Positions 26,697-60,096 of a DNA stretch of 64,000 nt are shown in pieces (position 1 is the stretch's first letter; the number at the start of each line of letters is the position of its first letter). The notes beneath the pieces are model-generated. The model was not told the origin of the DNA. It ran no database searches and saw only the letters and a list, made by a program, of their open reading frames with translations. The stretch comes from Clostridia bacterium (GTDB taxonomy: Bacteria > Bacillota > Clostridia > Oscillospirales > Acutalibacteraceae): assembly GCA_017415025.1 (NCBI GenBank), contig JAFQJH010000014.1:46846-110845 (forward strand), read 5' to 3'. The translations under genes were made by a program, and so were the position numbers.

Positions 26697-26800
26697 CAAA
26701 AAAGGACAAATCAGTATCAACTGACTTGCCCAGACGGTCGGCTGTTCGCCATTTGCATTCCCTTGCGGTAATCCGCTGATCCGTCAGTCATGCAATGGTT
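26697..26800 (-). promoter_or_regulatory. ZTP (pfl-motif) riboswitch with overlapping terminator, upstream of pflB
   Basis: Read on the minus strand, ACTGACGG, GGGAATGC and CCGACCGTCTGGGCA match the conserved parts of the pfl motif, which senses ZTP/ZMP, the signal of low 10-formyl-tetrahydrofolate. GACGG and CCGTC form P1. The terminator stem GGGCAAGTCAGT/ACTGATTTGTCC followed by seven T uses the same GGGCA as the aptamer, so ligand binding should prevent the terminator (an ON switch). Formate from PflB can feed formyl-tetrahydrofolate synthesis, which fits. Assignment is from memory of the consensus. Confidence 0.82.
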
Positions 26801-26815
26801 TAAATTTACACTCAT

Positions 26816-47884: not shown

Positions 47885-47913
47885 TTTTATCACCCGTAAT
47901 TTTATCAATAAGA

Positions 47914-48101
47914 AACCCCGCCAAGCCGCTTACAACCGATAGTAACCTGCGGTTAAAGCAGGTGGGTGCTTCCCCGGCAGTTCACGCTCCCTTCGTCCGC
48001 AGGGCGGGAGGTCTGCAATCCGTGCCGGGAGATAAGCTCCCGTAAAATACAATTGTAGGGTTAATATGGGCTGCAAGTTATCGCACAAGGCAGGGGGAAC
48101 C
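47914..48101 (-). ncRNA. ssrS: Probable 6S RNA
   Basis: About 185-190 nt. Read on the minus strand, the ends pair: CCCCCTGCC/GGCGGGG and CTTGCAGCC/GGTTGTAAG form the closing stem. A central bubble follows whose 3' side holds the small hairpin ACCTGC-TTTAACC-GCAGGT. An apical arm pairs CTCCCGGCACG with CGTG...TGCCGGGG and CTCCC with GGGAG. A competing hairpin CGGGAG/CTCCCG could form on refolding. This is the plan of 6S RNA, which binds the sigma-A RNA polymerase. Exact ends are estimated. No separate promoter is obvious, so it may be processed from the DUF1292 transcript. Confidence 0.65.
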
Positions 48102-48108
48102 TTAACAA

Positions 48109-48405
48109 TTATTCGTCAAAGTCAAACATTTCGGAAAGTCTTTCCTCAAAAGCTTTGCCGACCTCGTTGAACTCCTTTTCGTTCTCGATCGGGCAAAGAT
48201 ATGTTTCGCCGTTTTTATCCTCTTCAACCTTGAGGATGATGAGCTCGCCGTCGTCATCAAGGATTTCCTCTGCATCGTCATAGACGGGGAGCAGAGCCAC
48301 GTAACGTCCGTCATCAGTCTCGATTCTGTCAAGCTCTTCAAAAATATGTTCAACGCCGTTCTCATCAACAACGCTTACAATATCGGGGTTAAAATCTTCA
48401 GCCAT
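48109..48405 (-). CDS. DUF1292 (YrzB-type) acidic protein
   Basis: 98 aa, strongly acidic. The family pattern is seen as VVDENGVEHIFEELDRIETDDGRYVALLPVYDDAEEILDD. Function unknown; the gene is conserved near alaS-yrzL-yrrK in other Firmicutes but stands alone here. Its stop lies only a few bases before the probable 6S RNA, suggesting a shared transcript. Confidence 0.88.
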   Translation of the reverse strand: MAEDFNPDIVSVVDENGVEHIFEELDRIETDDGRYVALLPVYDDAEEILDDDGELIILKVEEDKNGETYLCPIENEKEFNEVGKAFEERLSEMFDFDE

Positions 48406-48527
48406 TTTATTTTCCTCCGTAAGATTATCTCGTACATTATATTTTAACCTTAAACGCCTGAATAGTCAAGATAAATTAGAATTAAGTCAAAATATATAAA
48501 ATTTTTCAACTTTTTTCAAAAAAACTA

Positions 48528-48556
48528 TTGACAAACGCAAAAACGTATGCTAATAT
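48528..48556 (+). promoter_or_regulatory. Near-consensus promoter of the repeat-bearing transcript
   Basis: TTGACA (48528-48533), a 17-nt spacer and TAATAT (48551-48556) with a TGC extension. One of the strongest promoters in the window. Transcription should start near 48562. Confidence 0.85.
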
Positions 48557-48623
48557 AAAGGCGAACCAAGGGAAAACATAACAAAATAACACATGAGAGA
48601 TGTGAAGTAAGGAGGCGAGTCCA

Positions 48624-48674
48624 ATGAACTTTGAAGAATCACAATTTAATAGGGCCGCCGCAGGTCAGAGGTAA
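48624..48674 (+). CDS. 16-aa ORF at the head of the repeat transcript
   Basis: ATG 48624 to TAA 48674 encodes MNFEESQFNRAAAGQR. The ribosome site AAGGAGG (48609-48615) is the best match to consensus in the transcript, with 8 nt spacing. The following GCGAGTCC is similar to the GTGAGTCC of the later units, so this may be the founder unit. Hydrophilic, no membrane segment. Confidence 0.5.
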   Translation: MNFEESQFNRAAAGQR

Positions 48675-48844
48675 ATCTTACAAAAGACGGTGTGAAGAAA
48701 CCGAAATTAATGAATTTATCATCAAAGATTTCAATGTGATTTGCGAAGCGGCAGGCGAGTGGGAACGCCCACATTATATAGCAGGCCGATCGTAAGATCA
48801 AAACCTAACTATAAAATTCATAAAATTAAATTTTCAGTTTTGTT

Positions 48845-49128
48845 AAATCTGAAAGAGTGAGTTGAAATGTACAAGTAATCTTAAAACGAGAAAAAGAAAT
48901 TTTTAAAGAGAGTGAGTCCTATGCACATCTGAATTTAATTCTCAAAAAATTATGAGAGAGTGAGTACGATGTTCAAATAAACTTATTCCAATAAAATTCA
49001 ACTCGGAAGAGAGTGAGTGACATGTACATCTAGCGTTTTAAATTATCAGAAAATGTAAAGGTGTGAGTCCAAAGTACTAGTCATTATTAACTTATAGTAA
49101 AAGTAAAGGCGTGAGTCCAACATTCTAG
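48845..49128 (+). repeat. Tandem array of six SD-like/GTGAGT units, ~50-nt period
   Basis: Consensus AAAGRGNGTGAGTCC followed by ATG, two codons and stop in the first four units. Distances between GTGAGT cores are 55, 48, 53, 50 and 48 nt. Linkers are A/T-rich and not conserved. The core AAAGAGAG could also pair with CTCTCTTT of the terminator. Confidence 0.75.
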
Positions 49129-49141
49129 CTTAATAAAATCA

Positions 49142-49171
49142 AGAGAGCCGTCATTCGGCTCTCTTTTTTTG
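49142..49171 (+). terminator. Terminator of the repeat transcript
   Basis: AGAGAGCCG/CGGCTCTCT stem, loop TCATT, followed by a T-run. Confidence 0.92.
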
Positions 49172-49190
49172 TTTAAATCGGTGTAATGTA

Positions 49191-49263
49191 AAGCTCTGAT
49201 GAGCCTATATAAAGTTTGATTCCCCCACATAGTGAGGGAATTTGTGCAGCAGCAACAGAGCTT
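49191..49263. repeat. Inverted repeat with nested hairpin
   Basis: AAGCTCTG (49191-49198) pairs with CAGAGCTT (49256-49263), and between them GATTCCC/GGGAATT forms an inner stem. It sits between two terminators facing each other and has no promoter that I can see. Possibly part of an RNA read from either side. Confidence 0.45.
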
Positions 49264-49622: not shown

Positions 49623-50804
49623 TTAGAATACAATCCTTGCCGGATAGCTTGAAAGCTTTGCAAAGAAGAGTGCAACCTTATCCATAAAGATCCAGAAGCC
49701 TGCCTTGAATTTGCTGATACCCATTTCCTCGCGGAAATCCTCGTATTCGTAAGCTAATTCGTTTACCGTGATAACCTCTGATTCAAAGGTATTCGGAGAA
49801 TCCTCCTTGATTGTAATAAGTCTGCTGCCTCTTACAATCTCTTTGCCGTAAGCGTTGTAGGAAATACCGGGTGAGTTGATAAGCTTGATATTCTTATACT
49901 CGGTCTCATAAGTGTTTACGTGGTCGTGACCTACAAGAACACCGAGTACGTCGCCGTTTTCAGCCATTTTATCGACCTGGCCGTAGTTTACAACACCGGG
50001 TGAGGGGGGCTCGTAGATGTGGCCCGTGAATGCGCTTGTGTTCGGGAAAATAACGGGGTAGTGCTTACCGCCGTTGTATGTTTCTGTTATAGGGTCAAGT
50101 GCATATTTAACAGAAGGAAACATAGCCTCATAAACGTCGGGCGGAATCATATGCTGGAAGGCGATAGAATAAACCGTTTCGCCTGCCTCTTCCTTGAGGT
50201 CTGCATAAGTCTCGCTGTACCATTCAATCTGGTCGGTTCTCACGCTGTCATAACCGAGTCTGTTGCCGTTTTCATCCTCTGCATAAGTGTTTGAATCGAA
50301 CATCCAGAGGTTGAACTTAACCTTTTCGCCGTCAGATGAGTAAACGGGAAGGTTATGTGTTGCCGTACCCGTAAGCTCGGGAACTGCATCGTAAGCAAGA
50401 CAGTATTTTCCGCCCGCTTCCTGATACATTTTAAGAAGCTCGTCCTTTTCAACGCCCTGCTCGTGGTCGTGATTGCCGAAAACAAGCGTAAAGTATGTCT
50501 CGTGCTCAACATAGGGAGCAACAAGCTCCTTGATTGCCTCAAGCTTTGTCTCCTTCGGTCCTACGGTGTTGTCACCGCCGAGAACAACAAGGTCGGGCTT
50601 GTAAACGTCAAGCATATAGTTGATGTAGGTGAACATTTCCTTGTGCGCGGGGTATCCGTCCTGACAGTCACAGATATGAAGAATGCTGAACTCTCCGTCA
50701 CTGCCGAACTGTAATTTTGCAGGTGCTTCAGCCGCAAAGGCAGGAATAACACTGCCGATGAGCATAAGGCACGCAAGCGTGATTGAAATTATTGTTTTTT
50801 TCAT
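49623..50804 (-). CDS. Secreted calcineurin-like metallophosphoesterase
   Basis: 393 aa with a signal peptide (MKKTIISITLACLMLIGSVIPAFA). Metallophosphoesterase motifs: ILHICDCQDG (D-x-Q in place of the usual D-x-H), VVLGGDN, VFGNHDHE and GVLVGHDHVNTY. The C-terminal 25 residues (FKAGFWIFMDKVALFFAKL...) form a hydrophobic or amphipathic helix like that of the GH3 enzyme, suggesting membrane retention. ATG 50804 follows GGAGG. It probably cleaves a phosphomonoester or diester outside the cell; substrate unknown. Confidence 0.9.
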   Translation of the reverse strand: MKKTIISITLACLMLIGSVIPAFAAEAPAKLQFGSDGEFSILHICDCQDGYPAHKEMFTYINYMLDVYKPDLVVLGGDNTVGPKETKLEAIKELVAPYVEHETYFTLVFGNHDHEQGVEKDELLKMYQEAGGKYCLAYDAVPELTGTATHNLPVYSSDGEKVKFNLWMFDSNTYAEDENGNRLGYDSVRTDQIEWYSETYADLKEEAGETVYSIAFQHMIPPDVYEAMFPSVKYALDPITETYNGGKHYPVIFPNTSAFTGHIYEPPSPGVVNYGQVDKMAENGDVLGVLVGHDHVNTYETEYKNIKLINSPGISYNAYGKEIVRGSRLITIKEDSPNTFESEVITVNELAYEYEDFREEMGISKFKAGFWIFMDKVALFFAKLSSYPARIVF

Positions 50805-50899
50805 CAAAAAACCTCCTTAACACTATAATTATACCCTTTTGCGATTGCTGCTGTCAATTAACCCAAAGTAGAAAACAAAGAGCCTTTTTTGTGAATTTT

Positions 50900-59854: not shown

Positions 59855-60096
59855 GAAAAAGACATTGACGAAGAGGGGCTTTACCCGAACCCTTAAAGAG
59901 AGCTGTTGGTCGGTGCAAAACAGCAGGAGTTAAGTAAGGCTTGTAGCTTCCGAGTCGGAGAGAAGAAAACGAAAGTGATTAGACCTCTCCCGTTATGCTT
60001 CGTAAAAGCACCTGAAAGAGGTATTCTTATGAATACAATTTGAGTGGTACCGCGGGTTTTCAGCTCGTCTCAAAGCTTTTGAGACGGGCTTTTTTA
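59855..60096 (+). promoter_or_regulatory. T-box riboswitch controlling valS
   Basis: About 240 nt of leader. The T-box core GTGGTACCGCGG (60044-60055) with UGGU bulge would pair with a tRNA acceptor end having discriminator A, as in tRNA-Val. Stem I with its apical hairpin GCTGTTGGTCGGTGCAAAACAGC (59902-59924) precedes it; a GTA at 59934 is a possible Val specifier. The terminator AGCTCGTCTCAAA/TTTGAGACGGGCT (13-bp stem, from 60062) with T-run follows. Uncharged tRNA should prevent termination. Confidence 0.93.

Follow-up and report, generated by a model that had tools for sequence, protein, structure and literature searches.

The window, as we call the whole 64,000-nucleotide stretch of DNA analysed here, comes from a Clostridia bacterium genome of 2.09 Mb that is 83.6% complete. 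At 48528-49171 of its plus strand lies a putative transcription unit whose boundaries, as comparison with related sequences indicates, are set by a promoter and a terminator. The near-consensus extended promoter proposed by the initial annotation is recognisable as TTGACA-17-TAATAT with TG before the -10 box (48528-48556), and its TTGACA shows no change across an alignment of seven species (L001-L007). Downstream of it are a 5' hairpin, CACAT/ATGTG (48590-48604), for which three relatives (L005-L007) carry another matched pair, CTCAA../TTGAG, both read off the alignment with no formal count, and an ORF of 16 codons, ORF1 (MNFEESQFNRAAAGQR, 48624-48674), preceded at 48609-48615 by the SD AAGGAGG, the perfect ribosome site ascribed to it. 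The unit ends, as had been claimed, in a strong intrinsic terminator (10-bp stem, 5-nt loop and T run, 49141-49171, the stem-loop itself covering 49141-49165) with no gene after it: no same-strand gene was found within 1.6 kb 3' of the element in the window, and the next gene, coding for a calcineurin-like phosphoesterase (metallophosphatase), lies on the minus strand at 49623-50807. On the other side, a gene for a DUF1292 protein (PF06949; 48109-48405, minus strand) is the divergent neighbour of the element, and a 6S RNA detected by Rfam (47911-48099, minus strand) lies downstream of that gene. A 6S RNA is also present near all ten homologous loci of the genus, beyond DUF1292 as in the window. 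DUF1292 and 6S RNA form a conserved pair in their own right, since a scan of 20 DUF1292 loci from other genera detected the RNA in 18. The window further contains a Gut-1 RNA (RF01706; 40614-40688, minus strand) that adjoins a tRNA, a T-box leader (59856-60075, plus strand) and a ZMP/ZTP riboswitch (26721-26801, minus strand).

Between ORF1 and the terminator runs a row of six units of about 50 nt, whose GTGAGT cores start at 48857, 48912, 48960, 49013, 49063 and 49111, with spacings of 55, 48, 53, 50 and 48 nt in that order. All six lie on the plus strand. In units 1 to 4 the core is followed by a minigene made of ATG, two sense codons and a stop: ATG-TAC-AAG-TAA in unit 1 (ATGTACAAGTAA, 48857-48878), ATG-CAC-ATC-TGA in unit 2 (ATGCACATCTGA, 48912-48932), ATG-TTC-AAA-TAA in unit 3 (ATGTTCAAATAA, 48960-48980) and ATG-TAC-ATC-TAG in unit 4 (ATGTACATCTAG, 49013-49033). 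Unit 5 (49063-49080) has AAG at the start position (AAG-TAC-TAG) and unit 6 (49111-49128) has ACA (ACA-TTC-TAG). This layout agrees with the one originally read from the DNA, to which we add that units 5 and 6 also end in a stop, one codon on.

Within the window alone, the excess of GTGAGTNNNATG, a pattern that misses unit 1 with its one extra base, is modest (it occurs three times where 0.37 would be expected, and three is attained by 2 of 100 shuffles). The array is nevertheless far beyond chance because homologues keep ATG and stop. In the seven-species alignment, the ATG and stop columns of units 1 to 4 are invariant in 7/7 species and no indel occurs within units, while the linkers drift (46, 20, 52, 55 and 70% invariant in order, the last value being that between units 5 and 6). 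SD plus core is 86-100% invariant, whereas the sense codons drift as well, the last codon of unit 1 being AAG, AGA or AAT. A stop after one codon is kept in 6/7 species in unit 5 and also in unit 6, where the codon itself is variable. The spacing between ATG and stop, which homologues had been expected to reveal as kept or lost, is thus kept in close relatives, and unit number, the other property to be compared, does differ in more distant species, as do the stops.

DNA of the element matches 11 of 18 genus genomes, its own included, in a search of 60 relatives; beyond the genus, two genomes (G048, G050) give short and weak matches. In the long-form homologues of the genus, ORF1 has 16 codons in 10 of 11 cases and 17 in the other (L008). 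Two further genus genomes (G016, G017) carry at the same place a predicted transcript of only about 170-180 nt, in which an ORF1 of 8 codons is accompanied by a pair of minigenes, ATG-AAA-TAA together with ATG-TAC-AGT-TAA or with ATG-AAA-TAG. These two congeners (loci L091 and L092) lack the GTGAGT core and have GTGGTTCC or GTGGTACC in its stead, with their minigenes kept. No copy was found in the remaining 5/18 genus genomes: four of them (G003, G007, G009, G013; 61-86% complete) have no DUF1292 match either, and in the fifth (G005) DUF1292 is present with no element within the 1.1 kb read.

To what extent the reading frame is constrained outside the genus was judged from GGTGAGTCCNATG sites, chosen blind to stops in 80 family genomes and all read. 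Such sites, 43 in number, were found in 31/80 genomes, against one match in all for the reversed pattern. A stop exactly one or two codons after the ATG occurs in frame in 20/43 sites and off frame in 5/43 and 5/43; given the 7.9% expected from an off-frame stop rate of 54/1290, the in-frame value has p = 1.3e-11. The remaining 23/43 sites are ORF1s, longer ORFs or chance matches. The same search with AAG in place of ATG returned 26 sites in 19/80 genomes (backward control, 3), and in 14 of these 26 a stop lies one or two codons on in frame, the two other frames giving 4 and 1. AAG units thus keep in-frame stops too, although AAG is not known to be an efficient start codon, so the frame constraint may partly arise from something else. 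These units may start weakly, may descend from minigenes or may have a 3' part with another role; taking them as plain silent copies does not explain the frame constraint. We also considered by eye a GTG at -9 as the true start of the ATG minigenes, and rejected it, several of them having no NTG there and the SD-like word being too close. A start and an early stop are conserved in frame, as in minigenes generally, and translation is predicted.

Related elements are widespread in the family. From the loci read, some thirty genera of this bacterial family carry a predicted transcript with a short ORF1, often an AAG unit, at least one minigene and a terminator, so ordered that promoter and ORF1 are followed in some by a long middle region and then by AAG units, minigenes and terminator. 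The window array is one expanded form of this family, whose members in many genera usually include an AAG unit and in many cases end with just one minigene. To search for ORF1 starts we built R1, a sequence model 43 nt long, from 26 stretches. DUF1292 is present in 73/80 family genomes, and 70 loci from 69 genomes were fetched with the upstream side of DUF1292, some clipped by contig ends. At E up to 0.05, R1 matches 33/70 loci (32/69 genomes, 31 genera), a count that is not independent because 19/26 building stretches lie in those loci and two more of the 26 (L001, L009) have the same sequence as L055 and L067; in one of the matched loci (L143) the match is about 1.5 kb from DUF1292. In 200 family genomes, R1 is found in 81 at E up to 0.01 and in 56 at E up to 0.001. 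At 0.001 the numbers are 23/147 genomes for the order and 12/196 for the class, own and family genomes included; three class-level matches (L244, L245 and L246, starting MNSETSF, MGSEAQTS and MKSEEQIS) look real by eye; others may be chance.

Copies in the family are divergent from DUF1292 or located elsewhere. Free-standing compact copies away from DUF1292 were seen in L205, L206, L210, L211 and L214, and inspection by eye suggests that the following gene on the same strand has its own promoter-like sequence in L210 and L211. At the other extreme, arrays of 6-9 units exist, L149 having six clear units after ORF1 and perhaps a seventh. A minigene often lies near the terminator. Other genera include minigenes of one codon (ATG-AGA-TAA, ATG-AAA-TAA, ATG-ACT-TAA), and several other minigenes have different cores, e.g., GGTATAGACC, GGTTAGACC and GGATAGTCC. 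Some isolated observations deserve mention. In L129, once oriented, CCAATGTAA is a start codon immediately followed by a stop, behind the SD-like stretch GAGGCTTAG. In L267 (contig C25 of G193), GAGGTGAGTCCAATG-TAC-AAT/AGT-TAA minigenes occur at two places about 0.9 kb apart, directly 5' of near-identical terminator-like sequences and near a gene of a possibly phage-like region. In L243 and L248, from other families of the class, minigenes with a strong SD (ATG-GGC-TTT-TAA, ATG-GGC-TAT-TAA; around 1501) stand shortly upstream of a gene whose product starts like a secreted protein. Among viral contigs, 16 and 22 stretches match minigene patterns, which by a rough estimate is not above chance.

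A large structured non-coding RNA with spacer repeats, in which translation has no role, is a reading that we hold very improbable. It draws on a domain in the 5' half of the element (48759-48799, plus strand, ten genus sequences) composed of a GTGGGAACGCCCAC hairpin, a ATAGCAGG box and a GATCGTAAGATC hairpin, and on the long versions seen in other genera. The GTGGGAACGCCCAC hairpin is invariant in the ten sequences and hence uninformative. The GATCGTAAGATC hairpin has compensatory changes: both sides change in 3/4 pairs (12/500 shuffles reach 3), and neither the number of cells changed on both sides nor the covariation score is reached by any of 500 shuffles, although further pair types are reached by 493/500. 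Sliding the structure by -1 also gives 3 such pairs, but with 48.9% of cells paired versus 94.4%. The pattern of this domain was found in 9 contigs of a contig collection, most from rumen, gut or faeces. Against this reading, the units themselves are not paired above shuffles while their frame is kept, and the element has no Rfam match. On the window, no match above the gathering score falls in the element; on the 10 genus homologues and 20 + 20 further loci, known RNAs (6S, tRNA, RNase P, T-box and others) were found only outside it; and the 10 matches that a permissive search of 48400-49250 yielded are weak (E 0.21 to 9.4), all of them far below the gathering score. ROOL, GOLLD, OLE, raiA and HEARO, which the initial annotation wished to see excluded first, are not matched above the gathering threshold in the element or its homologues.

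Pairing around the starts was assessed by comparing the best stem between a start region and the 67-nt stretch after it with 60 base (not dinucleotide) shuffles. Minigene stems average 11.54 versus 11.90 in shuffles, 55/60 of which reach the mean (64 sites, a few of them probably incidental), and AAG-unit stems 12.03 versus 11.96, with 25/60 (35 sites, one of them dropped because its sequence was too short). A hairpin TGAGT...ACTCA noticed by eye in AAG units (L010) was dropped, that class not being above shuffles. ORF1 stems, in contrast, average 13.97 versus 12.53 and no shuffle of 60 reaches their mean (29 sites, a class that includes at least three later ORFs taken by rule, L069, L071 and L129). 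Taken singly, most ORF1 stems are not significant. The clearest is GCGTTTC/GAAACGC (L132, p about 0.02), followed by AGTCCAA/TTGGACT (L169) and TGGCTGA/TCAGCCA (L210), both with p about 0.03, and GCTTGTC/GACAAGC (L142, p about 0.07). The predicted stem of the window's own locus (48614-48659, plus strand), in which GGCGaGUCC just 5' of the ORF1 ATG faces GGGCCGCC within ORF1, has p about 0.5. Comparative evidence thus places minigene starts in unpaired sequence, whereas ORF1 starts tend to be predicted to pair with their own coding region. Pairing conserved without the frame would have spoken against the minigene reading; the converse is found, since the units are not paired above shuffles. That reading therefore stands, with a frame kept within the genus and enriched across other genera, units devoid of conserved pairing and no Rfam match.

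Across the wider family, ORF1 mostly has 8-30 codons, and its N-terminus in the loci read is often M-x-S/F/C-E-x-x-Q-F-like. Seven ORF1 peptides of 24-34 aa gave no NCBIfam family; their Pfam matches, zf-C2H2_11 (E 0.00047) and PPR_1 (E 0.086), are sub-cut-off and were taken as chance. A box, ACAATTTAATA, lies in ORF1 of L001 (about 48641-48651 of the window) and was also seen in L129, L134, L148, L153 and L205; across much of the genus it falls inside ORF1, in other genera outside it.

Mean SD duplex energies, calculated with an assumed 16S tail that was found in 0/18 genus genomes, are -16.9 for ORF1 (29), -14.2 for AAG units (35) and -11.5 for minigenes (64), and seven picked ORF starts of the window range from -2.2 to -12.7. 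Other windows of the same transcripts average -4.8 (1348), a contrast that is partly built in because the unit finder demanded an SD-like word. An extended pairing of the 16S with GGUGA(G)UCCAA was abandoned, the 16S tail being assumed and found in 0/18 genus genomes, and only the SD energies were kept. Of 68 spacings, the two smallest (17 and 19 nt) were taken for double calls and the next is 43 nt; starts at least 43 nt apart give each unit room for one ribosome. Within the genus, tandem duplication by itself could account for the regular spacing.

The core itself invites another interpretation, anticipated in part by the initial annotation, namely that GUGAGUCC (GCGAGUCC at ORF1) serves as a recognition site for a protein or a trans RNA, the array acting as a sponge that frees ORF1 from repression and ATG and stop being incidental. 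The core is common to ORF1, ATG units and AAG units, the last retaining it without a start codon, and the 86-100% invariance of SD plus core in seven species agrees with such a binding site. That claim is weakened by the congeners with GTGGTTCC or GTGGTACC, since L091 and L092 keep their minigenes with the core gone. The enriched in-frame stops, the several minigenes with other cores (GGTATAGACC, GGTTAGACC, GGATAGTCC) and the nature of the core, for the most part an extended SD, also tell against an array of binding sites, which we regard as unlikely.

We propose, at about even confidence and from sequence comparison, that these elements form an undescribed RNA gene family in which a strong promoter drives a short free-standing transcript bearing ORF1 and minigene units that would park idling ribosomes. 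The transcript would offer, besides ORF1, one to about seven open start sites, each with a stop one or two codons further on, and often an AAG look-alike alongside. Translation would begin at each ATG, yield a peptide of two or three residues and end before the ribosome has moved out of its initiation footprint, so that a ribosome would idle at each unit. Holding ribosomes on the RNA would then be the most likely purpose, and ribosome capture is favoured because no gene follows in the window. Among its possible consequences we favour titration in trans of initiating ribosomes or of initiation or termination factors, since unit number is expanded in the genus and compact versions contain little beyond ORF1 and the AAG unit, with their minigenes. 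According to work cited in PMC8708949, a strong SD lets the ribosome stay on a minigene and initiate there anew, which raises toxicity. The leader minigenes of that study are reported to act in cis, not in trans, which counts against trans titration.

The main rival to ribosome capture is a role in cis, possible although we lean against it, in which parked ribosomes would keep RNases away from an untranslated, AU-rich RNA whose real product would be ORF1 or the structured domain. The linkers are AU-rich, the minigene is often near the terminator and longer forms carry a domain with compensatory changes. Moreover, PMC8708949 cites long pauses on minigenes as protecting or stabilising the transcript, and its authors, whose leader minigenes are reported as cis-acting, suppose a protection of AU-rich mRNA. 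Such a role is harder to reconcile with compact L091, L092, L205, L210 and L211, which have no domain and only an ORF of 8-15 codons to protect, and with arrays of 6-9 units where one or two sites should do.

Depletion of specific peptidyl-tRNAs, also suggested initially, is not supported. A trap of this kind, as proposed for phage lambda bar, would deplete particular tRNAs by drop-off from minigenes; the title of Hernandez-Sanchez 1998, as cited in PMC8012679, attributes the bar effect to peptidyl-tRNA accumulation and tRNA starvation, and the one-codon minigenes ATG-AGA-TAA, ATG-AAA-TAA and ATG-ACT-TAA do occur here. Yet the last sense codons (AAG, ATC, AAA, AGT, AGA, GGC, CAC, CAG, GTT, TTC, TTT, TAT, GCA, ACT and ACG) differ widely, between genera and even from unit to unit of a single RNA; they point to no shared tRNA, and we consider depletion of a single tRNA quite improbable.

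The ribosome-parking elements could also be viewed, more speculatively and with considerable doubt on our part, as a translational counterpart of 6S RNA, from which the element is separated only by DUF1292. By this analogy the RNA would be a strongly transcribed decoy, assembled from repeated start sites that each run straight into a stop, which soaks up initiating ribosomes and tunes translation capacity. AAG units might retain 30S subunits that do not begin translation, and ORF1, under the control of its hairpin, would serve as a gauge of ribosome supply.

No described family with such a layout is apparent, in agreement with the initial annotation: Rfam gave no match, and no recognisable description of such a gene was found in a literature search whose coverage excluded most subscription journals. 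A human-microbiome survey (PMC8040213) reportedly lists thousands of candidate structured RNAs and could contain the family. Single minigenes are already known from phage and leader elements; a gene that stands alone, is kept in about thirty genera of one family and encodes nothing but a short peptide and a series of ORFs of two or three codons was not found described in that search. Minigene ORFs fall far under the usual length cut-offs, a warning for annotation. If these RNAs do park or count ribosomes, they would represent an RNA-based control of translation capacity in bacteria.

Several known systems bear comparison. ROOL, GOLLD, OLE, raiA and HEARO are long free-standing RNAs, some from related bacteria; unlike them, the array conserves reading frames and not a fold, and has no Rfam match. 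A lambda bar minigene has one codon between ATG and stop. The present units share with it an SD, an ATG and an early stop, after one to two codons (two in the window), and the exact bar layout with one codon is found in other genera. Unlike bar, they belong to transcripts of their own in which several minigenes are combined with ORF1 and AAG units, and the fixed last codon or tRNA of bar has no equivalent here, codons varying within and between RNAs. The leader minigenes described in PMC8708949 (EHEC LEE1/LEE4, axe-txe mg1/mg2, B. subtilis ycbK) are likewise tiny ORFs behind an SD, with effects exerted through ribosome occupancy, positive or negative, and RNA protection supposed in some; theirs precede a gene, within its leader, and affect it in cis, whereas in the window no same-strand gene was found within 1.6 kb downstream. 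Tandem RNA repeats also recall ToxI-like type III RNAs, but the repeats here are translation starts, and no toxin gene was found beside them in the window, the neighbours being DUF1292, 6S RNA and the metallophosphatase. In type III toxin-antitoxin RNAs of the ToxI kind, the tandem repeats are tens of nt long. 6S RNA mimics an open promoter for RNA polymerase. As a possible analogy only, both would be decoys that mimic the site their machine binds, the difference being that the present element would mimic translation start sites for ribosomes.
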